Shown here one piece after another: positions 9,627 through 33,189 of a stretch of DNA of 34,084 nucleotides (its first letter is position 1; every line of letters starts with the position of its first letter). A program made the position numbers and the translations under genes. The DNA is from Candidatus Nanopelagicales bacterium (GTDB lineage: Bacteria > Actinomycetota > Actinomycetes > S36-B12). The notes below the pieces were generated by a model. It saw only the letters and a program-made list of their open reading frames with translations. It was not told where the DNA came from and did not search any database. The stretch lies in NCBI GenBank assembly GCA_017857705.1, contig JAFMCP010000012.1:1-34084 (forward strand), in the 5' to 3' direction.

Positions 9627-9632
9627 GGCCAA

Positions 9633-9638
9633 AGACTA
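9633..9638 (-). promoter_or_regulatory. Putative -10 box for leaderless sbtA-sbtB transcript
   Basis: TAGTCT, six bases (TTGGCC), then the sbtA ATG at 9626. It fixes the sbtA start. Confidence 0.5.
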
Positions 9639-9655
9639 AATGCAGGATGTTTTTT

Positions 9656-10738
9656 TCATGTAATAGGGTTCGTTAGTTTCATTTGCGCGCGTGTGATAAG
9701 TATGTTGACGACTTGGCCGAAACCAGCGAACCGTGGATTTGTTGTTGCACCGGATTGATACCTCGCCCAAATTTGTTGAATGATCACTGCAAGTCGAAAT
9801 AATCCATAAATTTCATAGAAATCCCAGTGCACTCTTAATGATTCCGCAACTTCGCCACCCATAAATGCCCCGTACCGTTCAACAACCTCTAACCTGGTCA
9901 ACATCCCAGGGGCATCTGAAGGTTGCATGCGAAAACTCGAAAATGCCGGGTCGTCATCAACTTGAACCCAATAAGCCATCGCTGCACCCAAATCCATGCA
10001 TGGATCACCTACCGTCGACATCTCCCAATCAAGTATCCCAATCAATTCACCACGTGAATCAAGTACCAGATTGTCAAAGCGCCAATCCCCGTGAATGAGT
10101 GAGTGCTCAACGTCGGGTGGTTGATTGCTGGCGAGCCATGCCATGAGGCTCTCCGCATCGGGGACATCTGATGTCCGTGAATCGCGATAGCGCTTGGACC
10201 AACCAGAAATCTGACGAGCAACGTATCCTTCACCCCGATCAAGCTCAGCGAGTCCTACTTCAGAAACATCTATTTGGTGAAGTTGGGCTAAAGCATCAAC
10301 CATGGATTCGCACAAAAGTCGCACGGCACCCTCGCTTGTATTTAGCTCAGCGGGAATAGAGGTACTTAATATGTGGCCCTCGATGTATTCCATAAGGTAA
10401 AAAGGCGTTCCCAGTACTTCGCTGTCCTCGCAATAAGCAATCACATTGGGTGCACTCGCCAAAACTGGACTAAGTGCGCTTAACACCCGAGCTTCACGCC
10501 CCATGTCATGTGCACTCGCCGCCTTAACGCCGTGTGGTGGTTTACGCAGGACATAGGCCGTGCCAGCCGAATCAGTTACCAAATACGTCAAGTTGCTTGC
10601 GCCACCTTGAAACTGCAATAGTTCTAGCGGCCCATGTAGACCTAAGCCAATTTCATTGGCCCATTCCAATAGTGCCTCGAGATTGAGTGCGTCTTCACCG
10701 CGTACCGCAGAGGTTCGCGAGGGAACAACGCTATTCAC
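9656..10738 (-). CDS. Phosphotransferase family (APH/ACAD10-like kinase-fold) protein
   Basis: A 360-residue protein of the APH/choline-kinase fold, closest in pattern to actinobacterial ACAD10-type phosphotransferases that work in fatty-acid or hydroxyacyl-CoA metabolism. Visible motifs: a nucleotide loop FQGGASNLTYLV, the VLRKPP lysine, the catalytic loop SLIHGDWRFDNLVLD (HGD-x4-N) and the metal-binding ILDWEMSTVGDPCMDLG. All kinase-fold catalytic residues are present. The GTG start overlaps the stop of the upstream small membrane gene (GTGA); a longer reading from 10855 would overlap that gene almost fully and is not supported. Although the fold includes aminoglycoside kinases, the IEGH and DWEMSTVGDP features favour the acyl-metabolism branch. 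Confidence 0.85.
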   Translation of the reverse strand: MNSVVPSRTSAVRGEDALNLEALLEWANEIGLGLHGPLELLQFQGGASNLTYLVTDSAGTAYVLRKPPHGVKAASAHDMGREARVLSALSPVLASAPNVIAYCEDSEVLGTPFYLMEYIEGHILSTSIPAELNTSEGAVRLLCESMVDALAQLHQIDVSEVGLAELDRGEGYVARQISGWSKRYRDSRTSDVPDAESLMAWLASNQPPDVEHSLIHGDWRFDNLVLDSRGELIGILDWEMSTVGDPCMDLGAAMAYWVQVDDDPAFSSFRMQPSDAPGMLTRLEVVERYGAFMGGEVAESLRVHWDFYEIYGLFRLAVIIQQIWARYQSGATTNPRFAGFGQVVNILITRAQMKLTNPIT

Positions 10739-19382: not shown

Positions 19383-20429
19383 CTAGTTATTCTGTGCAAT
19401 TATCAAGTGTGCTGTTCGGTGAGCAGCCGAGAAGGCACCTTGAATGTGACCCGGTGAATCAACAGCTGTTTCGGTTGATGCAAAAAATAGCCGTCCATCA
19501 AAGTGTGGTTGGCGTAGTGCGTGAGATCCAAAGAGTTGATAATCATTTAATTGATCCACTCCAGGTGGCGAAGTGAACTGCGAACTACTCCAGTCTTTGA
19601 TCAAGACGGATCGTGGGGTCTTCGCTTCCGGACCAAAAAGCTCTGCGAGTTGCGTTGTGACCGCTTCCTCGGTTATTCGTTCTCTGCTAAATCCAAAGAG
19701 GGCACCAAAACATTCCTCCACATCACTTACGTCATGGATTTCTCGAAGCGGTCCAACATGACTCATTGCACTCCCTGCTAATCCATGTTTGCGCCAAAAC
19801 GGTGAGTCATAGACTGCGACTACTTTTGTCACGGCACCCATCCAGACTGGCGTATTCATGGCGATACTCATTACGTCTTCGGGTAGTTGCGGGCTAAAGG
19901 AAATATTGGCAAGAGCAGTCGCTGGTGGTAAAGCCAGCACAACGTGTTTCGCTGTATAAACACCGCGATCGGTTATCACCGTTACGCCCTTGTCGTTGCC
20001 CTGATCAAACTTCAATTCGGTCACCTTCGTTGAAAGTTGCACAGTGCCAGGGGGCAGGGATTCGGCTAATGCGACTGCAAGTTTTTGGGTTCCACCACTA
20101 ATTCGCCAGGCCTGTTGATCAAGTGGGTTGCCATCTAGTTCCTGCACACTCCCTGGGATTTGATACATCATGTTGCCACTCGCGTATTGCGGAAACGTCT
20201 CTATTCCGAATTCATGAATGACTTCACGTACGTCATTTTCGTTTTGCCAGAACCACGTTGCACCAAGGTCAACACCTGGATCTGCAGAAAGCAGGCGCCC
20301 GCCCACTCGATCTCGGCCTTCACAAACGGCAACTGACACTCCAGCTTGACCCAATATTCTTGCAAGTCGAAGGCCACTTGCTCCGGCGCCTACAACAAAT
20401 ACGTCAAGTGCATCAACGGTTTGCATCAC
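19383..20429 (-). CDS. Flavin-containing amine oxidase (monoamine oxidase family)
   Basis: A 348-residue FAD enzyme that oxidises an amine to an imine. The dinucleotide-binding motif is VVGAGASGLRLARILGQAG (GxGxxG) followed by EGRDRVGGRLLS, the classical MAO arginine loop. The centre has ISGGTQKLAVALAES, and the C-terminal FAD-binding part has GRLFFASTETAVDSPGHIQGAFSAAHRTA, equivalent to the MAO GE-x6-G-x2-EGA motif but with Ser-Thr-Glu-Thr. It is shorter than most MAOs (about 450), so the substrate domain is reduced. The start is GTG 20429 because TAGTGT lies exactly six bases before it; ATG 20426 is the alternative. Tryptamine or other aromatic amines are possible given kynA nearby, but that is a guess. 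Confidence 0.87.
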   Translation of the reverse strand: MMQTVDALDVFVVGAGASGLRLARILGQAGVSVAVCEGRDRVGGRLLSADPGVDLGATWFWQNENDVREVIHEFGIETFPQYASGNMMYQIPGSVQELDGNPLDQQAWRISGGTQKLAVALAESLPPGTVQLSTKVTELKFDQGNDKGVTVITDRGVYTAKHVVLALPPATALANISFSPQLPEDVMSIAMNTPVWMGAVTKVVAVYDSPFWRKHGLAGSAMSHVGPLREIHDVSDVEECFGALFGFSRERITEEAVTTQLAELFGPEAKTPRSVLIKDWSSSQFTSPPGVDQLNDYQLFGSHALRQPHFDGRLFFASTETAVDSPGHIQGAFSAAHRTAHLIIAQNN

Positions 20430-20435
20430 TTGGGC

Positions 20436-20441
20436 ACACTA
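20436..20441 (-). promoter_or_regulatory. Putative -10 box for leaderless amine oxidase transcript
   Basis: TAGTGT, six bases (GCCCAA), then GTG 20429. It favours GTG over the ATG one codon later. Confidence 0.5.
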
Positions 20442-20455
20442 ATGGTCTTTCACAA

Positions 20456-20596
20456 TCATTGGCGTTTGCATTTCTCCGAGCAGTACTTGACCTGGTCCCA
20501 ATCTCGAGCCCATTTCTTGCGCCACTCGAACGGTCGACCACATGCAGCACAGACTTTTGGCGGAAATCCATTTTTTGGTTGAGCCACGCGGGTCAT
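20456..20596 (-). CDS. DUF2256 small zinc-ribbon-like protein
   Basis: A 46-residue protein, easy to miss because of its length. It reads [20 protein letters not shown], then [19 protein letters not shown], which is the DUF2256 pattern. Cys16, Cys19, Cys39 and Cys43 form a CxxC...CxxxC zinc-binding set. The function of the family is unknown; from memory it is often found beside cryptochrome/photolyase or other flavoprotein genes. The ATG at 20596 has TATCGT six bases upstream. It lies 26 bases before the flavin amine oxidase start and is divergent from the iron transporter operon. Confidence 0.88.
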
Positions 20597-20602
20597 AGAA
20601 AA

Positions 20603-20608
20603 ACGATA
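20603..20608 (-). promoter_or_regulatory. Putative -10 box for leaderless DUF2256 transcript
   Basis: TATCGT, six bases (TTTTCT), then ATG 20596. It supports this short gene being real. Confidence 0.45.
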
Positions 20609-20651
20609 CCCACCCCGAATTCCCCTTAAACAGATCGACCGTCTACATTAG

Positions 20652-20670
20652 TAAGGTAATCCTTACCTAA
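20652..20670. promoter_or_regulatory. Iron box (DtxR/IdeR-type operator) before the iron ABC operon
   Basis: The 19-base site beginning TAAGGTAAT and ending ACCTAA matches the DtxR/IdeR consensus at 15 of 19 positions by my alignment. Its core AGGTAA-TCC-TTACCT is a perfect palindrome, and a nested GTAAGG-TAAT-CCTTAC repeat (20651-20666) overlaps it. TAACCT at 20668-20673 could be the -10 box, so iron-loaded repressor would block initiation. This implies the operon is on under iron shortage. Confidence 0.75.
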
Positions 20671-20702
20671 CCTATGGATTTACCCAACAATGAAAGGTCG
20701 TC

Positions 20703-21779
20703 GTGTCACATATCCGCCGAATATCCCGGTCTTCCCTCTCCTTGCGGCCCACCCGCGCGAAAGTGAGCGCAATCGCCGCAATGGCGCTGCTGCTCCCGGT
20801 CTTAGCCGCCTGCTCGAGTGACTCCGGCTCAGAATCGACAGAGTCTTCAGAACCAAGTGAGCTCGTGGTGTACTCCGGCCGTAGCGAAGAACTTGTTGGG
20901 CCACTTTTTGCCGAATTTGCCAAAGCAACCGGGATCAACATTTCTGCCCGTTTTGGTGACAGCGCCGAATTAGCAGCCCAAATGCTTGAGGAAGGAGACC
21001 GTTCGCCCGCTCAGGTGTATTTCTCGCAAGACGCAGGTGCATTGGGCTCGGTTAATTCACTCCTGAGCACACTGCCCGAAAACATAACCAGCCTTGTCTC
21101 GCCGGAGTATCGTGCGGTTGACAACACCTGGACAGGTGTAACGGGGCGAGCGCGAGTGATTGCCTACGACCCCGAAAATGTTCCAGCAGATCAAGTACCC
21201 CAATCGGTATTCGAACTCACCGATGAAAAATGGCGCGGTCAAGTTGCAATCGCCCCGACCAATGCCTCCTTCCAGTCATTTGTGACAGCTATGCGCCTGA
21301 CACAAGGCGAAGAGGTGACACAAGAATGGCTGACCGGTTTGGTCAATAACGATGTCCAATCGTATGAAAAAAACGGCTTGATTCTCGATGCAGTGGACAG
21401 TGGACAAGTTCAATTGGGATTGGTCAATCACTACTACTGGTATGAAAAAGCCGCCGAGGTCGGCGATACGAATATGCGTGCGCAGATTTCCTTCATGGCA
21501 CCACAGGACCCCGGATCACTGGTCAATGTTGCCGGTGTCGGGATCCTTAAAGGTGCGGCGGAGAACACAGCAGCTGTCGAGTTTGTTCAATGGTTGCTTT
21601 CACCCAGCACCCAAGAGTGGTTTGTTACCAACACATTTGAATACCCGCTGGTTACAGGAGTTGAATCTGCACCCGGCCTGCCTGCGATTGACACTCTCGC
21701 AGGGCCCGACATTGAACTCGCTCAACTTGCTGACCTGCCAGCAACCCTGGCAATGCTGCAAGACGTTGGCCTACTCTAG
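20703..21779 (+). CDS. fbpA: Iron(III) ABC transporter substrate-binding lipoprotein
   Basis: A 358-residue extracytoplasmic ferric-ion-binding protein of the FbpA/FutA/SfuA family. The signal peptide has an arginine-rich n-region and a lipobox LAAC with Cys37, so it is a membrane-anchored lipoprotein, followed by a Ser/Glu linker. LVVYSGRSEELVGPLFAEF is the family N-terminus, and the adjacent Tyr244-Tyr245 in NHYYWYEK are the iron-ligand tyrosines. The start is GTG with an AAAGG ribosome-binding site six bases upstream. It is the first gene of a three-gene operon behind an iron box, eight bases before the permease. Confidence 0.93.
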   Translation: MSHIRRISRSSLSLRPTRAKVSAIAAMALLLPVLAACSSDSGSESTESSEPSELVVYSGRSEELVGPLFAEFAKATGINISARFGDSAELAAQMLEEGDRSPAQVYFSQDAGALGSVNSLLSTLPENITSLVSPEYRAVDNTWTGVTGRARVIAYDPENVPADQVPQSVFELTDEKWRGQVAIAPTNASFQSFVTAMRLTQGEEVTQEWLTGLVNNDVQSYEKNGLILDAVDSGQVQLGLVNHYYWYEKAAEVGDTNMRAQISFMAPQDPGSLVNVAGVGILKGAAENTAAVEFVQWLLSPSTQEWFVTNTFEYPLVTGVESAPGLPAIDTLAGPDIELAQLADLPATLAMLQDVGLL

Positions 21780-21787
21780 ACACGACC

Positions 21788-23341
21788 ATGCACAATAAAG
21801 ACAACGCGAAGGCGCCGTTTCTCCTTTTCTGGGGAGCGGCGCTTTGCGCGTGCATCGCTGCGATTCCGCTGGTGTATCTGGCGATTCGAATTGGCGGTGC
21901 GGGAGTGCGTGAGATTGTCTCGATTCTTACTCGCTTGCGAACTTGGGAGACCGTAGGTATCAGTGTTAGTTTGGCGATCGTTGTTGTCACAGCTTCGCTG
22001 CTCATTAGTTACCCGACCGCACTTTTACTCACGCGAACAAAACTTCCACTTCGCAGATTCTGGTTCACGACCGCGGCGCTCCCACTTGCAATCCCTTCCT
22101 ACGTCGCTGCCTATGCATGGATTGCACTGATTCCCGGAATGAACGGGTTCTGGGCTGCAGCGCTGGTCTTGACCGCCGTGAGTTTCCCCTATGTTCTGCT
22201 ACCACTACTAGTGTCACTTCGATCCGCTGATATCGGGCTTGAGCAGGTTGCAAGGTCGCTCGGAGGAAAACCCACGGCTGCTTTTTTTGCAACCACATTT
22301 CGACAAAGCATTCCGGCGGCGGCAGCAGGCTCACTACTCGTAGCCCTCTACGTTCTCTCAGACTTCGGTGCGGTAGCACTGCTTCGCGTTGATGCATTCA
22401 CCCGAGTGATCTACACCTCCTACCGGGCAAGTTTTGATCGAAGCAATGCCGCGGTCCTTGCCGGCATGCTGGTGATTCTCGCCGTGATTCTGATTTCACT
22501 TGAGCGCAAAGCCCGCGGACGCACTCTCCGGTTTCGAGCCGACAAGGGCGTCGCCTCAATAACGGTGCCAAAGGCTCTCACGCCCATTTCCTCTGCACTA
22601 AGTTCACTTTGGTTCATCGCCATAGCGGTGATTAGCCTCGGAATCCCGATCATTTCTTTGTTGATCAGGCTCGCTCAAGGAGCACGCCGACCACTTGACT
22701 GGGCTGAATTGATGTCCGCCGTTGTAAATACAGCTTGGATTTCCGCCTTAGGGGCCGTGATCGCAGTCCTGCTAGCACTCCCCATTGCAGCGCTGGCGTC
22801 GAAGTTCCGCCGAAAAAGCACCAGCACCGTCGAGTCCATCTCTTATTCCGGTTTAGCGCTGCCCGGAATCGTGATCGGACTTTCCCTTGTTTACCTCTCA
22901 CTAAATACAGTGCCCTTTCTTTACCAGAGTTTTGTACTCCTCGCTTTCGCCTACGCGGTCCTCTTCCTGCCAAAATCACTTGGCGCATCACGGAGTTCAC
23001 TTGAAGCAATCCCGCCAGCATTAGCTCAAGTAGCCCAAACATTGGGTTACAGCCCGCTACGCGCTTGGCTGTACACGAGTGGCCGTATTTCTTTGCCAGG
23101 AATCGCCGCTGGCGGATTACTCGTCATGTTGACAGCGATGAAGGAACTCCCGGCAACCCTGATGCTTCGTCCAACAGGATTCGACACCTTGGCAACAGAA
23201 CTGTGGAGCCGCACCGAACTTGCGGCATTCGGAGCTGCCGCACCATACGCCCTCGCGCTAATTCTGCTTGCCGCAATTCCCTCCTTTGCCCTTTCACGCA
23301 GTTTCCTTACGAGTGAAAAAGAAACTATGGTGGTCGCGTGA
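21788..23341 (+). CDS. fbpB: Iron(III) ABC transporter permease (two-domain)
   Basis: A 517-residue membrane protein made of two fused permease domains with about twelve helices, as usual for FbpB/SfuB. Each half carries an EAA docking loop: EQVARSLGGKPTAAFFATTF (about residues 151-170) and AQVAQTLGYSPLRAWLYTSG (about 413-432), each followed by a proline/glycine-rich segment. The central polar linker with ERKARGRTLRFRADKG joins the halves. It forms the membrane channel for Fe(III) from FbpA, driven by FbpC, whose GTG overlaps its stop (GTGA). Confidence 0.92.
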   Translation: MHNKDNAKAPFLLFWGAALCACIAAIPLVYLAIRIGGAGVREIVSILTRLRTWETVGISVSLAIVVVTASLLISYPTALLLTRTKLPLRRFWFTTAALPLAIPSYVAAYAWIALIPGMNGFWAAALVLTAVSFPYVLLPLLVSLRSADIGLEQVARSLGGKPTAAFFATTFRQSIPAAAAGSLLVALYVLSDFGAVALLRVDAFTRVIYTSYRASFDRSNAAVLAGMLVILAVILISLERKARGRTLRFRADKGVASITVPKALTPISSALSSLWFIAIAVISLGIPIISLLIRLAQGARRPLDWAELMSAVVNTAWISALGAVIAVLLALPIAALASKFRRKSTSTVESISYSGLALPGIVIGLSLVYLSLNTVPFLYQSFVLLAFAYAVLFLPKSLGASRSSLEAIPPALAQVAQTLGYSPLRAWLYTSGRISLPGIAAGGLLVMLTAMKELPATLMLRPTGFDTLATELWSRTELAAFGAAAPYALALILLAAIPSFALSRSFLTSEKETMVVA

Positions 23342-24369
23342 GCGCGATAACAGTCCAAGACCTGAGCGCCGGATACGGTGGCGAGGCCGTAATAAGCGAC
23401 ATCAGTTTTGAACTGGCGGAACAACAGCTTCTGGCTATTTTGGGACCTAGTGGTTCAGGAAAATCCACTCTGCTGAAAGCAATAGCAGGGTTTATCACAC
23501 CCATGAAGGGATCAATCACCCTTGAGGGTGTACTCGTCTCAGGTGTTACCACTTTTGTCCCACCCGAAAAACGAAATATTGGCCTGGTCCCACAAGAAGG
23601 TTGCCTTTTCCCTCATCTTGACGTTAGTGGAAATATTGGTTTTGGAATTAAACGCAATCCGAACCTAAGGCAACGAGTCGAAGAGCTACTCGAGATCATC
23701 GGCATGAAGGAATTTGCACATACCCGACCCCAGGAGCTCAGTGGCGGTCAACAGCAAAGGGTTGCTCTCGCTAGAGCTTTGGCCCCCCAACCAAAATTGA
23801 TTTTGCTTGACGAGCCGTTTACAGCATTGGACACTTCACTGCGAGCACAAATGCGTGACGACATTCGAAGTATTCTCACCTTGACCTCCACAACCGCAAT
23901 CATGGTCACCCATGATCAAGAGGAGGCGCTGGCAACTGCAGATCAACTGGCGATCATGCAAGGCGGCAAACTCATTGCTTTTGGTACCCCACACTCGTTG
24001 TACAACACCCCTAAATCCATAGCGGTCGCCCAACTCCTCGGGGAGATCAACGTGATTCCAGCAGTTGTTGAGGCCGATCGCAATGTGCGCACCGATTTTG
24101 GTGTCAGCACCACACAAGATTCCCGTGAACTCAATGCTGGAGAGTTGGGAGCATTGATCGTGAGACCTGAAGCGATTGTGATAGACGAGCATTCAACCCC
24201 GAATGCAACAATCGTTGATTCACTTTTTCACGGTCACGACTCACTAATTAGCGTGCGAATGGATAGTGGATTAGTTGTTAAGTTGCGTGAACCAACACAG
24301 ATAAATCGAGCACCCGGTGACCGCTGCTCGGTGAGCGTGACGCGCCCAGGAACTTTCCTGCGCTCTTAG
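23338..24369 (+). CDS. fbpC: Iron(III) ABC transporter ATP-binding protein
   Basis: A 343-residue ABC ATPase. Walker A is GPSGSGKST, followed by a Q-loop in GLVPQEGCLFPHL, the signature LSGGQQQRVALARAL, Walker B LILLDEPFTALD and the switch His in VTHDQEEAL. The C-terminal extension (from about residue 230) has the TOBE-like pattern LIVRPEAIVIDEH and LISVRMDSGLVVKLREP, typical for FbpC. The start GTG overlaps the permease stop. The next gene, blh, begins 72 bases downstream in the same direction without an obvious terminator. Confidence 0.93.
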   Translation: MSAITVQDLSAGYGGEAVISDISFELAEQQLLAILGPSGSGKSTLLKAIAGFITPMKGSITLEGVLVSGVTTFVPPEKRNIGLVPQEGCLFPHLDVSGNIGFGIKRNPNLRQRVEELLEIIGMKEFAHTRPQELSGGQQQRVALARALAPQPKLILLDEPFTALDTSLRAQMRDDIRSILTLTSTTAIMVTHDQEEALATADQLAIMQGGKLIAFGTPHSLYNTPKSIAVAQLLGEINVIPAVVEADRNVRTDFGVSTTQDSRELNAGELGALIVRPEAIVIDEHSTPNATIVDSLFHGHDSLISVRMDSGLVVKLREPTQINRAPGDRCSVSVTRPGTFLRS

Positions 24370-24429
24370 CCCCGCTGGATCGATTCCCTAAAGATAGGCA
24401 TTGCGGTGGTAAGTCGAACACCCACAGGC

Positions 24430-24435
24430 CAGAAT
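24430..24435 (+). promoter_or_regulatory. Candidate -10 box for the blh transcript
   Basis: CAGAAT (4 of 6 to TATAAT) six bases before ATG 24442. It favours this ATG over GTG 24406 and suggests blh can be transcribed apart from the iron operon; readthrough from fbpC is also possible. Confidence 0.4.
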
Positions 24436-24441
24436 TCACCC

Positions 24442-25434
24442 ATGAGCATTGCGAGCACCCAAGTTCCGAGGCAGTCTGCTCCCAGCCGAAACCTCGCGCT
24501 GGTTGTCCTCAATCTTGGTCCAATCTTTGCTTGGATCGCAATTATTGCCAGTTTGCTGACTCAGGTAACTTCCTCATCTGTTGACATAGGCCCTATTCCC
24601 GCAGCACTGGCACTCATCGCCTTGGCCCTTGGCATCCCGCATGGAGCCGCTGACAATTTAACTTTCGTTCACGTACTCTCTTGGCGTGGCTGGATTCGCC
24701 TTGTCATTGTCTACGTGACTATTGCCGCAGTCGCCGCACTCCTCATTATTGCTTTTCCTTCGATTGGATTTGTTCTCGTACTCGCAATGACCGTGTGGCA
24801 TTTCGGTACAGGTGATGTGCAAGCTACCGCCGAGCTTGAGGGGGAAACCCCTGCCAGCGGAAAATTCCGAATTCTTTATGCACTGGCACTGGGTAGCGCA
24901 CCGGTGTTACTACCGCTTACTTCTCCCGCGGCCTTGAGCACGGTTGTTTCCCTTGAGCCTGAACTTGCCTCGATCTATTCCAATCCTGTGACTGCAATCA
25001 TTCGAGGTGTAGTACTTGCCTTGATTGTTATCTCCATCGTGGCACTTATTGCTCGAGGCGCCCTTCGTGGTGCTTTCGAATTGTTCACGCTGGCAGTTCT
25101 CGGCCTGATCGCGTCACCATTTATCGCTTTCGCTGTCTATTTTGGTTTTTGGCATGCATCCCGACATACTGCACGCTTAGCCCTAGTAACAACAGGTGCG
25201 ATCAACGTGCGTTCACTCGCTGCCGTGACAAAAATCGGCATTCCATCTCTTCTGGGATTCATCGCGATTCTCGCCGGACTCACGATTTTCCTTGGCAATA
25301 ATTCGATGACCGGTACGGTTCTCTGGATTGGCCTTGCAATCGTCTGGGGTTTGACCGTTCCCCACATGTGGTTCGTGTCACGTTTTGATCAACGGCTGCG
25401 GGCCAAGGGAAATCCCCAAGAGCCGCCTTCCTAG
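24442..25434 (+). CDS. blh: Brp/Blh family beta-carotene 15,15'-dioxygenase (retinal synthase)
   Basis: A 330-residue membrane enzyme that cleaves beta-carotene into two retinals, the chromophore for rhodopsins. Family motifs with probable Fe(II)-ligand histidines: GIPHGAADNL (His67), TVWHFGTGDVQ (His120) and FGFWHASRHTARL (His238, His242), giving the four-histidine set expected for this non-heme iron family. At least eight hydrophobic helices are visible. The usual PHGALDH motif is varied to PHGAADN. It lies directly after the iron ABC operon and about 16 kb from the heliorhodopsin gene. No carotenoid synthesis genes are in the window. Confidence 0.9.
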   Translation: MSIASTQVPRQSAPSRNLALVVLNLGPIFAWIAIIASLLTQVTSSSVDIGPIPAALALIALALGIPHGAADNLTFVHVLSWRGWIRLVIVYVTIAAVAALLIIAFPSIGFVLVLAMTVWHFGTGDVQATAELEGETPASGKFRILYALALGSAPVLLPLTSPAALSTVVSLEPELASIYSNPVTAIIRGVVLALIVISIVALIARGALRGAFELFTLAVLGLIASPFIAFAVYFGFWHASRHTARLALVTTGAINVRSLAAVTKIGIPSLLGFIAILAGLTIFLGNNSMTGTVLWIGLAIVWGLTVPHMWFVSRFDQRLRAKGNPQEPPS

Positions 25435-25474
25435 CCACAGAGCCTTTCTTGGCGCACAAATTCGAAAAACGCGC

Positions 25475-25480
25475 GACAAT
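25475..25480 (+). promoter_or_regulatory. Candidate -10 box for the SDR-DUF2867 gene
   Basis: GACAAT, six bases (AGGGGC), then ATG 25487. AGGGG could instead serve as a close ribosome-binding site, but the spacing is too short. Confidence 0.35.
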
Positions 25481-25486
25481 AGGGGC

Positions 25487-27007
25487 ATGAGTAACGAGAC
25501 TGTGGAGAATGATCCTCGACCAATTTACCTAGTGACCGGCGCCACCGGTTATGTCGGTGGACGCCTGATCCGGGAACTCGTTCAACGCGGCCTCCGAGTT
25601 CGCGCACTTGCTCGACACCCCGATCGGCTCAGGGACTTCCCGTGGGTTGATCAAATCGAAATTGCTGCAGGGGATGCCGGTGATCCAGAGTCACTTAGCG
25701 CGGCAATGCAAGGGGTGAGCGTTGCCTACTATCTCCTTCACTCACTTCAAGAAGGTAAAGAACTCGAATTCGAAGAGAGTCGGATTGCTGAAAATTTTGC
25801 CCAGTGCGCAAAAGAGGCCAAAATAAAACGAATTGTTTATCTCGGTGGGCTCGCACCAGACTTGCCGATCACGGAAATGTCACCGCACATGCGATCTCGG
25901 GTGGCGGTCGGTCGGATCTTGCATGACTCAGGTATTCCCACAATTGAATTACGGGCCGCTGTAATCATCGGGTCAGGTTCAGCATCTTTTGAAATGCTCC
26001 GCTACCTCACCGAGCGGCTTCCCGCGATGATCACTCCTCGCTGGGTCAGGACACAAACGCAGCCGATTGCGGTGCGAGATGTACTGCGCTATCTGGTTTT
26101 ATCTGCGGAATTACCCGCGGAGGTAAGCAGGTCCTTCGACATCGGTGGGCCCGACGTCCTGGCTTACCAAGACATGATGCAGCGTTACGCCAAGGTTGCC
26201 GGGCTGCCCCGACGTTTGATTTTGCCGATCAATATTTTGACCCCAAAACTCTCCAGTCATTGGGTGGGGCTGGTAACTCCGGTTCCGCGCGCAATCGCAC
26301 GACCACTCGTTCTCTCACTACGATACCCAGCCGTGTGTTTAGACAGCGATATTAAAAACTTTATTCCCGATCCACCTGAGGGTCTTCTCCCATTTGATCA
26401 ATCAGTTGCATTGGCCCTCACTCGAATTCAAGATGCCCAAGTGACAACCCGATGGTCAAGTGCCAGTACACCCGGTGTTCCTAGCCAGCCGCTACCCAGT
26501 GATCCTGACTGGGCCGGCGGCACTCTCTACGAAGACATTCAAGTTCTTAATTCACAAGCCACACCCCAAGAATTATGGGCCGCAGTTGATTGCATCGGTG
26601 GTGACAATGGCTGGTATTCGGCGAAATTACTTTGGGAGGTTCGCGGCTTCATCGACCGATTAGTAGGTGGGGTGGGTCTTCGGCGTGGCCGTCGCGACCC
26701 AAATGTTCTACATGTCGGAGAAACCGTTGATTTTTGGCGGGTTGAGGAGAGACAAGCACCCGAACTACTTCGACTACGGGCAGAAATGAAGATGCCCGGA
26801 CGAGCATGGCTCGAATTTTCGGTGACCGAAGGGAAAAATGGCGGCTCTACTCTCACCCAGCGGGCTGTTTACTGGCCAAAGTCCCTCACCGGACACGTGT
26901 ACTGGTGGTCAGTAGCGCCATTCCATGCCTTCGTGTTCCCACCGATGGCCAAACACATCGTCGAACGGGCAGAATCAAAACCTGCCCTCACGAAATCGGG
27001 GAGTTAA
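25487..27007 (+). CDS. NAD(P)-binding SDR/NmrA-like protein with C-terminal DUF2867 domain
   Basis: A 506-residue two-domain protein. Residues 10-310 form an atypical short-chain-dehydrogenase/NmrA fold with the dinucleotide motif LVTGATGYVGGRLIREL (GxxGxxG) and IVYLGGLAP. Residues about 330-500 form DUF2867: WWSVAPFHAFVFPPMAKHI is near its end and GGDNGWYSAKLLWEVRGFIDRLVGG is central. This fusion is widespread in actinobacteria and its reaction is unknown; DUF2867 resembles a START/polyketide-cyclase-like fold. A longer reading from 25385 overlaps the end of blh and is not supported. Stops interlock with the YqhA-like gene (TTAA). Confidence 0.85.
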   Translation: MSNETVENDPRPIYLVTGATGYVGGRLIRELVQRGLRVRALARHPDRLRDFPWVDQIEIAAGDAGDPESLSAAMQGVSVAYYLLHSLQEGKELEFEESRIAENFAQCAKEAKIKRIVYLGGLAPDLPITEMSPHMRSRVAVGRILHDSGIPTIELRAAVIIGSGSASFEMLRYLTERLPAMITPRWVRTQTQPIAVRDVLRYLVLSAELPAEVSRSFDIGGPDVLAYQDMMQRYAKVAGLPRRLILPINILTPKLSSHWVGLVTPVPRAIARPLVLSLRYPAVCLDSDIKNFIPDPPEGLLPFDQSVALALTRIQDAQVTTRWSSASTPGVPSQPLPSDPDWAGGTLYEDIQVLNSQATPQELWAAVDCIGGDNGWYSAKLLWEVRGFIDRLVGGVGLRRGRRDPNVLHVGETVDFWRVEERQAPELLRLRAEMKMPGRAWLEFSVTEGKNGGSTLTQRAVYWPKSLTGHVYWWSVAPFHAFVFPPMAKHIVERAESKPALTKSGS

Positions 27008-27459
27008 TTCTTTTTCGTTGCAAATGTGAAGGCCGCTAAGCCGATCACGAGCGCGCCCGAGCCAGCACCGGCCAGGAAAACATCATTACTCGAGTTGTTG
27101 TCGACCAGTTGACCAAGAAATACAACGGCAATGATTGCAACAACCACACCAATGAGTTTGTTCTTCAGATCATCAAGATCCTTGATCTCCAGCCATGCCG
27201 GAAGTTTGACCTCAGTATCGACAAACAATTCATAAAGTCCGTAACCAATGACAAGGAGAACGGTCGCCAACAGCAGGGTGTCCACCGCTGTCAGAATTCC
27301 AACAACGGTGTCCTTTAGCGGCGAGGAAGAATTGAAAATCCCGATAATGGACCTGAAAACTTCCCACGTTCCGATCAGCATCAGTGTTAACGCACCAAGG
27401 AGTGAACCAAGGACGGGCAGAATAACCACGAAGCGTGAGAGTTCAACGAATCTGCGCAT
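27004..27459 (-). CDS. YqhA/UPF0114 family membrane protein
   Basis: A 151-residue membrane protein with four hydrophobic helices. The pattern FVVILPVLGSLLGALTLMLIGTWEV, then the polar VDTLLLATVLLVIGYGLYELFVD and WLEIKDLDDLKNKLIGVVVAIIAVVFLGQLV matches UPF0114 (PF03350), a widespread family of unknown role. ATG 27459 is preferred over GTG 27465 because TACTTT lies six bases before it. The stop interlocks with the SDR-DUF2867 gene on the other strand. Confidence 0.85.
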   Translation of the reverse strand: MRRFVELSRFVVILPVLGSLLGALTLMLIGTWEVFRSIIGIFNSSSPLKDTVVGILTAVDTLLLATVLLVIGYGLYELFVDTEVKLPAWLEIKDLDDLKNKLIGVVVAIIAVVFLGQLVDNNSSNDVFLAGAGSGALVIGLAAFTFATKKN

Positions 27460-27465
27460 GAGCAC

Positions 27466-27471
27466 AAAGTA
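27466..27471 (-). promoter_or_regulatory. Putative -10 box for leaderless YqhA-like transcript
   Basis: TACTTT, six bases (GTGCTC), then ATG 27459. Confidence 0.45.
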
Positions 27472-27501
27472 GTGCCAAAGCCTTAGCCCCGCGGGTTGGA
27501 C

Positions 27502-27837
27502 CTACGGATTTAGGGTTCTGCGCGAAAGCATCACGGCAATAAATAGGACGACCGTGAATCCTGTGAGGAGAAATGCCATTGGGTTAACAAAAATGCCCAG
27601 CAGTGAATCTGAGATAAAGACGAAGACCGTCAACCAAATAGCGGCCGCTGACCTTCTAGTTGTAGATATCGAGATGAGCGCGTGTGCACCACCAAGAACC
27701 AGAGCCAAGAGCCCCACTTGAACGACAGACGCATCGATTTGCCCCAGCGCGGTTCTACCGAATGTCACAACCCAGAAAATCACACCAATTGTTGCAAGGA
27801 CATGGACAGAAATTGCACCAAAGCGGCTCGTAGTCAT
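27502..27837 (-). CDS. Small four-helix membrane protein, family not recognised
   Basis: A 111-residue, strongly hydrophobic protein. Four membrane segments are visible: VHVLATIGVIFWVVTFG, VVQVGLLALVLGGAHALI, AAAIWLTVFVFISDSLLGIFV and FLLTGFTVVLFIAVML. A short arginine-rich tail (SRRTLNP) is probably cytoplasmic. I find no catalytic motif. ATG 27837 has CATGAT six bases upstream; ATG 27858 is an alternative adding seven residues. It is divergent from the UbiA prenyltransferase (80 bases between starts), so a link to that cluster is possible but not shown. Confidence 0.65.
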   Translation of the reverse strand: MTTSRFGAISVHVLATIGVIFWVVTFGRTALGQIDASVVQVGLLALVLGGAHALISISTTRRSAAAIWLTVFVFISDSLLGIFVNPMAFLLTGFTVVLFIAVMLSRRTLNP

Positions 27838-27905
27838 TCCGCAATCATGCCAAGGCATGAAACCAATGAGTGCATCGCAGGGACGGACGCCCACCGGGCA
27901 TCCCC

Positions 27906-27911
27906 TACGGT
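27906..27911 (+). promoter_or_regulatory. Putative -10 box for leaderless ubiA-like transcript
   Basis: TACGGT, six bases (CAGTCC), then ATG 27918. It decides against a longer reading from 27870 that would add a charged, non-family tail. Confidence 0.5.
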
Positions 27912-27917
27912 CAGTCC

Positions 27918-28730
27918 ATGCGAGTAGTGCTCGGGTTCATAAAGGCAAGCCATCCGCTGCCCACAATTGCCGTCTCATTGGTCATCAGCGCGTTCGGTTG
28001 GAGTTTAGGTTGGACCGGACTCTCTCTGCTCGCCGTCTTCACAACCATCTTCGTTGGTCAACTGTCGGTGGGTTGGAGCAATGACGCATTTGATTCTTCC
28101 TTGGATACAAGGATCGGACGAACAACTAAACCGACAGTGGCGCAAGATGTATCCGCGCGAGCACTCTGGGTTGCAGCGCTCGCCGCGCTACTCATTGCCA
28201 TTGCATCCAGTTGGGTAATTGCCGGTTGGCTGGGTGGATCCTTCCACATTTTCGCAATCCTGATGGCCTGGCTTTACAACATTCGACTTTCGCGCACGGC
28301 GTGGTCCTGGCTCCCTTACGCCCTCGCTTTCGGTGCGATGCCTGCCTTCCTATCCTTCGGATTAAACGATGAACCCCCGACCCTTTGGTCGGTCGCTGTA
28401 TTCGCGATCATCGGGGTGAGCGCCCACCTAGCAAACGCTTTACCTGATGCGGAGTTTGATACCGCTGCTGGTGTTGGTGGGGTCGTGGTTGCTTTAGGAA
28501 ATCGCCGGTCCGTTATTTTGTGTTGGCTACTTCTAGCCCTTGGTAGTGGAATCTTGGTTCTCGTGAGCTATGCAACAAGCGCTTGGCTAGCACTGATCAT
28601 TTTCGTTGCATTCGTCCTCACGGTGATTGTTGGTTCGCGTTCCCACTATCGCACCGCCATGTTTTATTCCCTCATTGCAATGGTTGCAATTGACGTTGCC
28701 GCACTGGTGATTGTGACAGCAATCAACTAG
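27918..28730 (+). CDS. UbiA-family prenyltransferase
   Basis: A 270-residue membrane prenyltransferase that attaches an isoprenoid chain to an aromatic or quinone-like acceptor. Both Asp-rich motifs for Mg-diphosphate are present: NDAFDSSLD (Asn55, Asp56, Asp59, Asp63) and NALPDAEFD in the second half. Seven to nine hydrophobic helices are visible, with LYNIRLSRTAWSWLPYALAFG in the middle, the conserved segment after helix 4. It sits tail-to-tail with the FAD hydroxylase of the PKS operon with interlocked stops (CTAG), which suggests a role in the same pathway. Donor chain and acceptor are unknown. Confidence 0.9.
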   Translation: MRVVLGFIKASHPLPTIAVSLVISAFGWSLGWTGLSLLAVFTTIFVGQLSVGWSNDAFDSSLDTRIGRTTKPTVAQDVSARALWVAALAALLIAIASSWVIAGWLGGSFHIFAILMAWLYNIRLSRTAWSWLPYALAFGAMPAFLSFGLNDEPPTLWSVAVFAIIGVSAHLANALPDAEFDTAAGVGGVVVALGNRRSVILCWLLLALGSGILVLVSYATSAWLALIIFVAFVLTVIVGSRSHYRTAMFYSLIAMVAIDVAALVIVTAIN

Positions 28731-29746
28731 GCCGCTAAGGAATCGACAATTCGGTTGAAAACCCTTGGCAATGCACGCGCAGCCGGCACAATCATTGGTC
28801 GCAGTCCACGACGAGAGGACGCCCACAGCAGGCCCCCTGTCATCAACCGGTACGACCTCGTGACCTTTTGCCAATCGCGTTCATAGTGCTCAACGTGATC
28901 CGTGGAGATTGCGTTGACCGCTGCTTGCGCTTCCGCGAAACCTAAACGCAGACCCTCACCGGTTAATGCGTCGATGTAACCGGAAGCATCTCCGACTAAC
29001 AGCACCCGGTCATTGGATCGGCTACTGACTCGTTGCATGAGTGGACCGGCACCCCTCAACTCACTCACTCGGGGAACGCAATCAAGTCGCGCAGATAGTT
29101 CGGGCACTCGAGCAATTGCCTCATCTAGGTTCAACACGGACCGGCCAAGGACAGCAACACCGATGGTGTCCGGACCCACCGGTGTTACATAGATCTCTGA
29201 GTCGTCAAGCCAGTACACCTCGACCAAATCACTCCACGGTGCGATTCCAAAGTGTTGGCGGATCCCAAAACGCTGCACACCTGATGCAACTTCGCCCAAG
29301 CCGAGTATTCGACGAACATTGGAATGCAGTCCGTCCGCGCCAACGAGGTAACGAGAGCGCATCTCACCCGCTTGGATCCAGCCCTCTCCTTGGGTGATCT
29401 TGTCAACTCGTCCAGTGACCATCACCACACCAAGTTCCTGCGCCCGTTCATACATTGCTGCATGCAAAACTAATCGTCGCACTCCCCTGCCGGGTCCTGA
29501 TCGGAATCGAGCTTGGGCCACATTTCGCTTGGAGATGTACCGAATTCCATAAAAGTCATGTCCAACCGGGTCAACCCCGACGGACTGTAATCGCAGCAGT
29601 GCATCGGGCATTAAACCTTCACCGCATGCTTTGTCGATCGGTCCAGATCGTTGTTCAACAACAGTTACGTCGAGTCCACTCAATCGCGCCTGAATCGCGG
29701 TCATCAGTCCGACCGGTCCACCGCCAACGACAATGAGGTCGTTCAT
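28727..29746 (-). CDS. FAD-dependent hydroxylase/oxidoreductase (SrsC-like)
   Basis: A 339-residue class A flavoprotein. The FAD motif is VVGGGPVGLMTAIQARLSG, followed by VVEQRSGPIDKACGEGLMPDAL, the variant typical of enzymes beside type III PKS genes and geranylgeranyl-reductase relatives. The second flavin motif is RVLLVGDASGYIDALTGEGLRLGFAEA. In Streptomyces SrsC hydroxylates an alkylresorcinol, leading to a quinone. It is the last gene of the PKS-ICMT-FAD operon; its ATG overlaps the methyltransferase stop (ATGA). Confidence 0.88.
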   Translation of the reverse strand: MNDLIVVGGGPVGLMTAIQARLSGLDVTVVEQRSGPIDKACGEGLMPDALLRLQSVGVDPVGHDFYGIRYISKRNVAQARFRSGPGRGVRRLVLHAAMYERAQELGVVMVTGRVDKITQGEGWIQAGEMRSRYLVGADGLHSNVRRILGLGEVASGVQRFGIRQHFGIAPWSDLVEVYWLDDSEIYVTPVGPDTIGVAVLGRSVLNLDEAIARVPELSARLDCVPRVSELRGAGPLMQRVSSRSNDRVLLVGDASGYIDALTGEGLRLGFAEAQAAVNAISTDHVEHYERDWQKVTRSYRLMTGGLLWASSRRGLRPMIVPAARALPRVFNRIVDSLAA

Positions 29747-30264
29747 TTGGGGAGCGTCCCGAGCGCCTCGTTTTCAACTCGAAGTCGCGTCGCCAGCAGC
29801 GGAATGTTTAATACTGTGAAAATAATCGCGGTTACCCAAGCGAAACCGACCATTGGTAGCGCTATTCCTTCAATAACAACGGCGACATAGTTGGGGTGGC
29901 TTAACCAGCGGTAAGGGCCACCTGTAACTCTCGGCATCCCTGGAACAATTACGACGAGCGTGTTCCAGCGCTTACCAAGTGTTGTGATACACCACCAGCG
30001 CAATGCTTGTGAAGCAAGAACAAGTGCGAACATGGTCCACGCGAAAGCCGGGTTGATCGGTTTCTGCCACACCCACACTTCAACAAGTGAACCGACCAAC
30101 AGAAACACATGCAGAGCAACCATGTATGGGTAATGGGATCTGCCGAATTCGACTCCCCCGTGTTCCGCGCTCCAGCGAAGGTTCCGCTTTGAAACCGCAA
30201 GTTCCACGATTCTTTCACCAGCAACGATCACGATCAGGATGGTGAACAAGACGAAGGCTGTCAT
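29743..30264 (-). CDS. ICMT-like membrane methyltransferase (SrsB-like)
   Basis: A 173-residue integral-membrane methyltransferase of the isoprenylcysteine carboxyl methyltransferase type. The SAM/substrate signature is GPYRWLSHPNYVAVVIEGIALP near the C-terminus, with NLRWSAEHGGVEFGRSHYPYMV in the first half and five hydrophobic segments. In bacteria, members next to type III PKS genes (SrsB) O-methylate phenolic lipids. I start it at ATG 30264, four bases after the PKS stop; a reading from 30297 would overlap the PKS gene. Confidence 0.88.
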   Translation of the reverse strand: MTAFVLFTILIVIVAGERIVELAVSKRNLRWSAEHGGVEFGRSHYPYMVALHVFLLVGSLVEVWVWQKPINPAFAWTMFALVLASQALRWWCITTLGKRWNTLVVIVPGMPRVTGGPYRWLSHPNYVAVVIEGIALPMVGFAWVTAIIFTVLNIPLLATRLRVENEALGTLPK

Positions 30265-30268
30265 CGGA

Positions 30269-31342
30269 TCACCATTCCAGTAGGACCAATTCGGCACAAA
30301 ACCCCGGACCCATCGCCGTCAACATTGCAGGCGTCCCCGGTTCGGGGGCTGACCCACCTGTGCCATAGAGAGTGTCACATAAAACGTGTAAAACCGACGA
30401 GGAAGAAAGGTTTCCGATCGCCGCGAGTGATCGCCACGTTACGTCGAGTTGACCCTCGTGTAGGTCAAGGGCTGACTCCATGGCCTCCAGAACCCTTGGC
30501 CCGCCAGGGTGACACACCCAGTTGTTAATGTCGGGGATTTTGAGATCGTGATCACCGAGAAAGTCGCTGACGTCCTCTCCAAGGTATTGGTTGACTATGT
30601 CAGCGACACCGGCTGACAGGACAATTCGGAAACCGCTTCCACCAATGTCCCAACCCATTGTCCGCTCTGTGTCGGGGTAGAGCCGACTCCGAGATGCAAT
30701 AACTTTGGGCCCGGTGATCCCCATGCGGGCCGCGCGCCTCTCCCCAACCATTACAACTGCTGCAGCACCGTCACCGAATAGGCCACTTGCCACAATATTG
30801 GGCATCGAAACATCATCGTGTTGCAAAGTCAACGAGCACAATTCCACAGATAACAAAACTGCAACTTCATCAGGATGACCCAAGAGGTAGTCATGAAGCC
30901 GCGCAATCCCCGCCGCACCGGCAACACAGCCAAGTCCAAATATCGGTACCCGCTTAACGTCTTGCCGCAATCCCAGCCGCGACACGAGCCTGGCATCAAG
31001 GGAAGGTGCGGCAATTCCCGTAACCGATGTTGTCATGATCATGTCAACGTCAGCAGCCTCTAGGTTTGCCGTAGCGAGCGCTCCCGAAATAGCCGTCGTC
31101 CCGAGATCTAAACCAACCCGAATGAACGCGTCATTTGCTTCGCCGAAGCCGGCAAGTGTGGCGTAGTCCTCCAAGGGAATTGCCAAGTTGCGGTGCTTGA
31201 CCCCCGTAGCGACGTGGATCCGTTCGATCACTTTTTGATGAGCCCCCTGGGGAGAAACGACGGCTGCGAACGCCTCGGTGAGTTGCTCTTGGGGGTACCC
31301 GTACGGGCCGACCACTGCGTGCGCAGCGGCAATAAAGGTCAC
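30269..31342 (-). CDS. Type III polyketide synthase (alkylresorcinol/alkylpyrone type)
   Basis: A 357-residue thiolase-fold chalcone/stilbene synthase relative that extends an acyl starter with malonyl-CoA and cyclises it. The catalytic triad is complete: Cys139 in FGLGCVAGAAG, His278 in WVCHPGGPRVL and Asn311 in IGNLSSSSVL. The C-terminal GPGFCAELVLL is the family's loop. The short N-terminus IAAAHAVVGPYGYPQEQL is standard. GTG 31342 is chosen over TTG 31369 because TACTAT lies exactly six bases before it. With the ICMT and FAD genes it matches srsABC, so the likely product is a phenolic lipid or alkylquinone precursor. Confidence 0.93.
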   Translation of the reverse strand: MTFIAAAHAVVGPYGYPQEQLTEAFAAVVSPQGAHQKVIERIHVATGVKHRNLAIPLEDYATLAGFGEANDAFIRVGLDLGTTAISGALATANLEAADVDMIMTTSVTGIAAPSLDARLVSRLGLRQDVKRVPIFGLGCVAGAAGIARLHDYLLGHPDEVAVLLSVELCSLTLQHDDVSMPNIVASGLFGDGAAAVVMVGERRAARMGITGPKVIASRSRLYPDTERTMGWDIGGSGFRIVLSAGVADIVNQYLGEDVSDFLGDHDLKIPDINNWVCHPGGPRVLEAMESALDLHEGQLDVTWRSLAAIGNLSSSSVLHVLCDTLYGTGGSAPEPGTPAMLTAMGPGFCAELVLLEW

Positions 31343-31354: not shown

Positions 31355-31411
31355 GGTGCCAAAGGGCAACAGCGATAGTCGCGGCGCAGCAATCCCCTTT
31401 GGGCGCTCACT

Positions 31412-32230
31412 CTAGCTACCGGTTTGCGTCCACTGCGCAACAATTCCGGAATAAGAAAACGGGCTGCCGGACACAATCATGGCGGAGGTCAAGAAGGCAT
31501 TGCCCTTTGCTCCTGAAGGCATCGGCAGTGTCATGGTAAGTGTCCCAGAGGAAAAAGTTAAAGCTGCTCCGCAGAGTAGATCAGTGGGCAATTGGGACAT
31601 CGGTGCTTGCTGAACGAGAGTCGCTTCGTAGCAATTTGTACCAGTATTGCTGAACATAAGTGAGGCCTCGTAGGCAAAATTATTTGTCGTTTGTATTGCT
31701 GCCGTTGCGGTCAGAGAGAAACTTTGACTGTAGGGAAAACTTCGAATTTGAGGCGATGCTCCCCTAGTGATATTGACACTAACCTTTTCCAAACGCACAG
31801 GCAACTCATTAGCTGACAACTCGCTGTCGGGTTCAATGACAAATCTCAAGTGTCCACGTGCCGTCAAACTGGGATCACCCAGTTTCACAAGCTGGAAATT
31901 ATTCGTCGAATTCCATGTCAGTGTTGATTCGACTCCCTCACCAGAAGTGTGGCCGAGGGCATCCCATGCTTTCACCAGATTACGGTCATCGATATCGCGC
32001 ACCACAGGCTCTAACGAAGAACCGATCTCACCCATCCATTGCCCACTAGCTTCTTGATCCAGGGTAATAACCAGCTCGCCATTTGACAATGTTTTGACGG
32101 TGGCCCAATCGGCATCTATTCGGATCAATCCTGTTCCCAAGGATGGGGCCCCGTGAGCTGGTGCAATTCCTATTCCCAAAAGTCCGATCAAGCCAAAAAA
32201 CGGAAACAAGGAAGCGACAACGCAATGCAC
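31412..32230 (-). CDS. Exported protein of unknown function, possible start-region frameshift
   Basis: A 272-residue reading from GTG 32230. It begins with a hydrophobic signal-like stretch ending in PAHGA, but without the basic n-region normally seen. The mature part is rich in Ser/Thr with beta-strand-like alternation (LTWNSTNNFQLVKLG, FSLTATAAIQTTNNFAYEASLMFS). A cysteine pair in NCYEATL and DLLCGAAL could form a disulfide. I do not recognise the family. A leaderless-type TAATCT lies six bases before ATG 32234, one frame away; removing one base from the T6 run (A6 at 32195-32200 on the plus strand) would join that start, with its MSALRCR n-region, to this frame. So the true start may be 32234. 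Confidence 0.65.
   Translation of the reverse strand: MHCVVASLFPFFGLIGLLGIGIAPAHGAPSLGTGLIRIDADWATVKTLSNGELVITLDQEASGQWMGEIGSSLEPVVRDIDDRNLVKAWDALGHTSGEGVESTLTWNSTNNFQLVKLGDPSLTARGHLRFVIEPDSELSANELPVRLEKVSVNITRGASPQIRSFPYSQSFSLTATAAIQTTNNFAYEASLMFSNTGTNCYEATLVQQAPMSQLPTDLLCGAALTFSSGTLTMTLPMPSGAKGNAFLTSAMIVSGSPFSYSGIVAQWTQTGS
32195..32200 (-). other. Homopolymer T6 (A6 on plus strand), suspected indel site
   Basis: Six T on the gene strand, in the signal-peptide region of the exported protein. With five T the reading from ATG 32234 would continue into the 272-residue frame and give a classical signal peptide. This could be a sequencing or assembly error, or a slippage site. Confidence 0.45.
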
Positions 32231-32261: not shown

Positions 32262-33155
32262 TCACCGTGCACTGAGTACACCAGAGTCAAAAGTGGGATC
32301 ATTTTCTGTTCGCGCAATGTGAGCAACTAATTCATTAAAGACAAGTTCCGGGTTGTCACCATGTGGATCATGTCCACTGTTATTAACAATCACCATTCGA
32401 CTTCCTGGAAGTAGCTCATGCAGCGCATACCCATGGGCTGACGGCAACATCGGGTCACTGTCTCCCCAGATAATCAGTGTGCGTTCAGGCTCAACCAGAG
32501 TCAGGCGATCCAAAGCGGAAACACGTTGCCCAGCAATTCCAATCACACTACGTAACGTGTTAACAAAACCACTGAGTCTTGCTTCGTCATTGAGATCCCG
32601 CAGAGTTTGAACTAACCGGTCATCAAATCCATGGCGACGAATACCGAAGACTCCCAAAACACCGACCACATGTTTGAGAGTTGATGTGACCTCAGGTCGA
32701 GAAATAACGCGGATCACTAATTCAGACCCTGGCAAAGTGGCCGCGCGCAACGACACACCGACTTCTGTGCCGAGGCCGCCACTAGCAATTAAAGTGAGTG
32801 AGGTGATGCGGTTGGAGTATTGGTAATACATTTGCATGCTCACACCACCACCGAGGGAATGCCCAACGAGGTGAACTCGTTCAATCTCAAGAAAATCGAG
32901 AACATCTCTGAGCATGGTCGCATTCGCTCCAAGGCTGTAATCACCGTTTCCAACTCCGGATCTCCCATGACCGAACAGGTCAACGAGGACCACCGCTCGG
33001 CCACTCTCACTTAACTGTGAATACAGGTCCGACCACGTGTCCATAGAAGAACCCACGCCGTGCACGAGTAGGACAGGGATCCCGTGACCTGAGAAGTACC
33101 TGTAGGAAATTTCAGTGCCGTTAAGACTCACAATTTGTTCATTGTCAGTATTCAT
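32262..33155 (-). CDS. Alpha/beta-fold hydrolase
   Basis: A 297-residue hydrolase of the alpha/beta superfamily. The oxyanion-side motif is LLVHGVGSSMDTW, the nucleophile elbow is GHSLGGG (Ser100), the acid is in WGDSDPMLP, and the base is in NNSGHDPHGDNPE. VDLFGHGRSG is the usual pre-nucleophile strand. There is no signal peptide. The reaction (esterase, epoxide hydrolase, C-C hydrolase) cannot be told. ATG 33155 has a good GAGGTGA site; GTG 33164 is less likely. It precedes the exported protein by 31 bases on the same strand and could share its transcript. Confidence 0.88.
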   Translation of the reverse strand: MNTDNEQIVSLNGTEISYRYFSGHGIPVLLVHGVGSSMDTWSDLYSQLSESGRAVVLVDLFGHGRSGVGNGDYSLGANATMLRDVLDFLEIERVHLVGHSLGGGVSMQMYYQYSNRITSLTLIASGGLGTEVGVSLRAATLPGSELVIRVISRPEVTSTLKHVVGVLGVFGIRRHGFDDRLVQTLRDLNDEARLSGFVNTLRSVIGIAGQRVSALDRLTLVEPERTLIIWGDSDPMLPSAHGYALHELLPGSRMVIVNNSGHDPHGDNPELVFNELVAHIARTENDPTFDSGVLSAR

Positions 33156-33189
33156 GACATTCACCTCTTATGGTTTTCGACCTGATCCC

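Follow-up and report, generated by a model that had tools for sequence, protein, structure and literature searches.

Here, we analyze a window of 34,084 nucleotides, i.e., the whole stretch of DNA under study, from the 2.0-Mb MAG (G000) of a freshwater actinobacterium of Candidatus Nanopelagicales. Three consecutive, tightly packed genes on the minus strand, in the order known from srsABC, face a gene for a membrane prenyltransferase on the plus strand. The operon starts with a type III PKS of the SrsA/PkqA/PKS11 type (30269 to 31342; PF00195/PF02797; possible upstream start at 31369), continues with an ICMT-type O-methyltransferase of the SrsB/PkqB type (29743 to 30264; PF04140, 4e-24; alternative GTG start at 30297), the translation of which contains an HPNY...E motif, and ends with an FAD-dependent hydroxylase of the SrsC/PkqC type (28727 to 29746; PF01494). 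The facing gene encodes a UbiA-family protein related to the agq-locus UbiA (27918 to 28730; PF01040). The FAD gene begins within the ICMT gene, its ATG and the ICMT stop overlapping by 4 nt, and the stops of UbiA and the FAD gene overlap tail to tail, also by 4 nt. All four open reading frames are intact where a sequence-only reading of the window had placed them; the reading frames, Pfam matches and orthology agree with its description of a tightly coupled operon in srsABC order, and the 4-nt overlap bears out its remark that UbiA interlocks with the last gene. In related genomes, the PKS-ICMT-FAD order is kept wherever the contig continues and, thus, the arrangement is not a matter of chance. 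The GC content of the four genes (0.52-0.57) equals or slightly exceeds the window mean of 0.52, so that a strong sign of recent foreign origin is absent.

Upstream of the PKS, an alpha/beta hydrolase gene (32262 to 33164, minus strand; PF00561) encodes a possible accessory protein; in the sister genome (L036), a homologue (9193-10083) is the next gene upstream of the PKS, and at another locus (L148) a homologue immediately precedes a PKS-less UbiA. The interval between hydrolase and PKS holds a gene for a 272-aa protein (31412 to 32230, minus strand) with a hydrophobic start, for which Pfam and NCBIfam searches gave no match and which is missing from the sister genome; this protein is probably not a member of the pathway. 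Farther away, positions 24406-25434 encode a Brp/Blh-family beta-carotene 15,15'-dioxygenase (TIGR03753, above cut-off), which suggests that this genome supports the production of retinal and perhaps encodes a rhodopsin.

The nearest PDB chain to the window PKS is PKS11 of M. tuberculosis (5e-113), and the catalytic Cys, His and Asn residues are invariant in an alignment of 17 homologues (A1). W230 of MMAR_2474 is reported to be essential for resorcinol formation, and FtpA, SrsA, PKS10 and PKS11 share this Trp residue (PMC5916927). The window PKS also has it (W230 in PKS11 numbering), encoded by a TGG codon at 30650 to 30652 on the minus strand that aligns with W230 of PKS11 and of MMAR_2474. 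Tyr or Phe takes its place in a number of other type III PKSs (L066, L080, L081 and L091); because some PKSs that are not of the srs type likewise have Trp, this residue supports a resorcinol product without proving it.

The window UbiA contains the motifs NDAFDSSLD and DAEFD and is one of three UbiA-family proteins encoded in the source genome, the others being a heme-O synthase (L001) and MenA (L002), both assigned by equivalog models. In the family tree, the window protein falls with cluster-linked UbiA proteins from Streptomyces and other genera and with the agq-locus UbiA, to which it is 39% identical over 199 aa, and it lies apart from CtaB and DPPR transferase. MenA is on a long branch, and the tree does not fix where it stands with respect to the cluster-linked set. 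Tree and equivalog models together rule out that the window UbiA is itself MenA, heme-O synthase or DPPR transferase. The sequence-only reading had allowed for a UbiA that groups with respiratory quinone or heme enzymes; the protein proved distinct from the genome's own versions of both. A side observation concerns two loci (L064 and L094) at which UbiA is divergent and upstream of a distant type III PKS, i.e., the layout of the agq locus; the former comes from the window's own order, and agq-like clusters may thus exist there too.

At 45 of the 62 sampled loci with PKS, ICMT and FAD genes, UbiA is located no more than 5 kb away, while the chance expectation for such proximity is about 0.6-2% per locus. 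The gene is upstream and divergent at 24 of these 45 loci, downstream and facing at seven, which form the window's clade, downstream on the same strand at seven, and upstream on the same strand at the remaining seven. Although the 62 loci are not phylogenetically independent, the existence of four arrangements argues for repeated retention of UbiA. A UbiA profile scan of named genomes found the divergent block at 46 loci, including those of Streptomyces griseus NRRL WC-3645, Herbidospora, Nonomuraea, Cellulomonas and Oerskovia, and the facing form at four; because the scan was seeded with cluster UbiA proteins, these counts do not represent a rate. By contrast, no nearby UbiA was found in the 62-locus sample at several loci, including three three-gene loci that are probably mycobacterial (L075, L115 and L116; family f10). 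The homology to srsABC, the expected class of product and the link to UbiA, as described in the sequence-only reading, are all supported, but the combination extends beyond small aquatic actinobacteria: pairing with UbiA is the usual state among the sampled Streptomyces loci and is common elsewhere, and the locus represents a widespread form of the srs/pkq operon.

The association extends to whole genomes. Among 146 relatives, a PKS search found an srs-type PKS in 28 and a distant PKS in four more, and UbiA is present in 70. UbiA occurs in 27 of the 28 genomes with the PKS versus 43 of the 118 without it (p 2e-9, kinship ignored) and, when only good-quality genomes are counted, in 15 of 16 versus 22 of 63 (p 3e-5, kinship ignored). 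The co-occurrence also holds where the two genes are on different contigs; in nine PKS-containing relatives, UbiA is on another contig or far from the PKS. The same numbers qualify the conservation of the four-gene block: linkage is widespread, but many relatives keep the same UbiA without a PKS. Gene content, homology, linkage and co-occurrence are direct observations.

One PKS-less genome (G003; loci L171/L283) belongs to a near relative. Its flanking synteny is intact and so is UbiA, but the block of PKS, ICMT, FAD and hydrolase genes is missing; the alignment with the window continues for ~13 bases beyond the UbiA stop, into the 3' end of the window FAD gene, and resumes past the block. 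Its UbiA is 81% identical to the window UbiA and nests within the operon-linked clade (99/91). Relative to the window copy, it has a dN of 0.13 and a dS of 0.78, although most of this divergence may predate the loss of the operon. The simplest reading is that the operon was lost and UbiA retained, in a genome that is 84% complete and in which an operon copy elsewhere is possible. Loss of the operon with retention of UbiA points to a second use of UbiA; in some lineages, the protein probably serves another function. Beyond clade-level synteny, no constant neighbor of UbiA was found in PKS-less genomes, which suggests that the protein can stand alone. Two further observations concern these relatives. 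Seven GenBank MAG records with freshwater Nanopelagicales-type UbiA loci are titled Bifidobacterium breve (L148, L150, L151, L153, L157, L166 and L171), names that look wrong; the last of these is about 80% identical to the window at the DNA level over positions 19876-28743. In four genomes (G047, G134, G141 and G105), the UbiA matches have in-frame stops within them or at their end and are possibly decaying or frame-broken copies.

Altogether, we favor a model, to which we assign a probability of roughly 0.6, whereby the locus is an srs/pkq-type polyketide-quinone operon with an agq-like UbiA partner that adds an isoprenoid chain. The PKS would extend a fatty acyl starter and close the ring to give an alkylresorcinol, the ICMT-type enzyme would methylate one of its hydroxyls, and the FAD enzyme would hydroxylate the ring, yielding a methoxy-alkylhydroquinone that can be oxidized to the quinone. 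We base these three steps on the chemistry demonstrated for orthologues in Streptomyces and mycobacteria. By analogy to agq, UbiA would most likely add an isoprenoid chain to part of the hydroquinone pool, a suggestion that rests on linkage and family; prenylation of the quinone by UbiA is likely but unproven. The product may serve as a membrane redox lipid or as a protectant under low oxygen or stress, by analogy to the published role of the mycobacterial and Streptomyces polyketide quinones. For the window's lineage, we infer all of this chemistry, in particular the prenylation, as well as the physiological role. The observation made from the sequence alone was right, and the prediction that came with it is plausible.

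Two readings differ from this model in the chemistry of the operon itself. The PKS could make alkylpyrones, possibly methylated, with the FAD and UbiA genes acting elsewhere; the entry for PKS11, the closest solved structure, was deposited under the name alpha-pyrone synthase. We regard this as improbable because the window PKS has the resorcinol-type Trp, a residue also at odds with the exclusively alkylpyrone-forming PKS that the sequence-only reading had held up against its own prediction, and because of the close co-conservation with the FAD gene, whose role on a pyrone is not evident. It is very improbable that the FAD protein is a prenyl reductase working with UbiA, in which case the product would be the methyl ether of an alkylresorcinol and would bear a reduced prenyl chain. 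This reading draws on the dihydrogeranyl chain of the agq product (PMC3569393) and on the best NCBIfam model for the FAD protein, TIGR02032 of the geranylgeranyl-reductase superfamily. However, the score of 99.9 bits is far under the family cut-off of 158.8 and equals that of the orthologue in a Streptomyces griseus srs locus (99.5); thus, the match does not make the FAD protein a reductase, and a geranylgeranyl reductase is unlikely. Moreover, the hydroxylation step has been attributed to SrsC (PMC6669644), and three loci (L074, L100 and L101) hold a separate reductase-like FAD protein, adjoining UbiA, in addition to their counterpart of the window FAD protein. These three srs-type clusters belong to another class of the phylum and have their second FAD protein upstream of the PKS; the one in L101 scores 152.8 bits, near the geranylgeranyl-reductase family, and is a candidate prenyl-chain reductase.

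The remaining alternative accepts the operon but separates it from its neighbor, i.e., the three genes alone make a polyketide quinone, and UbiA is functionally separate and adjacent by happenstance. Mycobacterial polyketide quinones are attributed to three genes, UbiA not among them (PMC9927152), and the behavior of UbiA in relatives fits such independence: 43 PKS-less genomes keep it, it survived the apparent local loss of the operon in G003, it is distant from the PKS in nine genomes that have both, and its lack of a constant neighbor in PKS-less genomes is what a gene able to stand alone would show. What makes this explanation rather unlikely is linkage at 45 of 62 loci in four arrangements together with co-occurrence in 27 of 28 genomes, as well as the presence of a relative of this UbiA at the chemically similar agq locus. 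The model with a UbiA partner can be extended, and we do so tentatively and at less than even odds: in many non-mycobacterial actinobacteria, an overlooked UbiA would prenylate the polyketide quinone, which would then not be the sole end product. The resulting prenylated polyketide (hydro)quinone would constitute a class of membrane redox lipids of its own, and the UbiA of freshwater Nanopelagicales would additionally act on a second substrate that is independent of the PKS.

In actinobacteria that are hypoxic or dormant, polyketide quinones have been proposed to act as alternative carriers in respiration. The pathway as drawn omits the UbiA gene that is found with about three quarters of the sampled operons; if UbiA prenylates the quinone, the true end product, and perhaps its behavior in the membrane, have been missed so far. 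Searches of open-access literature found no direct report of the pairing in freshwater actinobacteria or Nanopelagicales, or of srsABC with a prenyl product, and an earlier description in a subscription journal is possible. Three points seem to be new: the consistency with which an agq-like UbiA accompanies the srs/pkq operon, the similar chemistry at which agq arrives via unrelated tailoring enzymes, and the outliving of the operon by UbiA in Nanopelagicales.

The window PKS, ICMT and FAD proteins are orthologous to those of srsABC of Streptomyces griseus and pkqABC of Mycobacterium smegmatis, with the same order and strand; identities to the srs proteins of S. griseus NRRL WC-3645 are 57, 58 and 48%, respectively, the last over the full length of the FAD protein. 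The srs and pkq operons yield methoxy-alkylhydroquinones and quinones (PMC9927152). In the same study, spores of Streptomyces sp. MNU77 contained polyketide quinones with C14-C19 chains, and the PKS of this strain rescued an M. smegmatis pkqA mutant; the quinones were found unprenylated, and a prenyl product is not mentioned (PMC9927152). UbiA faces the last gene in the window, whereas it is usually divergent and upstream of srsA in Streptomyces loci; the probable mycobacterial loci sampled have no UbiA nearby, and the published srs/pkq pathway does not include it. The same four gene types are adjacent, in the order UbiA-T3PKS-ICMT-FAD, in Gephyromycinifex aptenodytis (ctg1_2034 to 2037). The published account describes this block as an alkylresorcinol cluster, includes it in its drawing of an angucycline pathway, and shows no phenolic lipid that carries a prenyl group (PMC8779670).

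The sequence-only reading knew of no characterized example of the combination in small-genome aquatic actinobacteria. Prenylated methoxyhydroquinones from a type III PKS cluster are already known, namely the alkyl-O-dihydrogeranyl-methoxyhydroquinones of the agq cluster of Actinoplanes missouriensis. At the A. missouriensis locus, which we equate with the published cluster because it holds the sole PKS match in the genome and has the corresponding gene content, the PKS is accompanied by a class I methyltransferase and an acyl-CoA-dehydrogenase-type flavoprotein, and UbiA is divergent. Thus, agq also combines a type III PKS, a methyltransferase, a flavoprotein and UbiA, the predicted chemistry is similar, and homologous UbiA proteins lie beside the PKS in both. 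The parts differ, however: the agq PKS is only 32% identical to that of the window, the agq methyltransferase belongs to the class I SAM enzymes (PF08241) rather than to PF04140, and the agq flavoprotein has acyl-CoA-dehydrogenase domains rather than PF01494. Judged by these domain assignments, the two loci appear to follow the same logic with different parts, the tailoring enzymes being from unrelated families, and so the window locus may function in the manner of agq without being an agq cluster. This comparison suggests that srs and agq, as unrelated sets of enzymes, arrive at prenylated methoxyhydroquinones of a similar kind.
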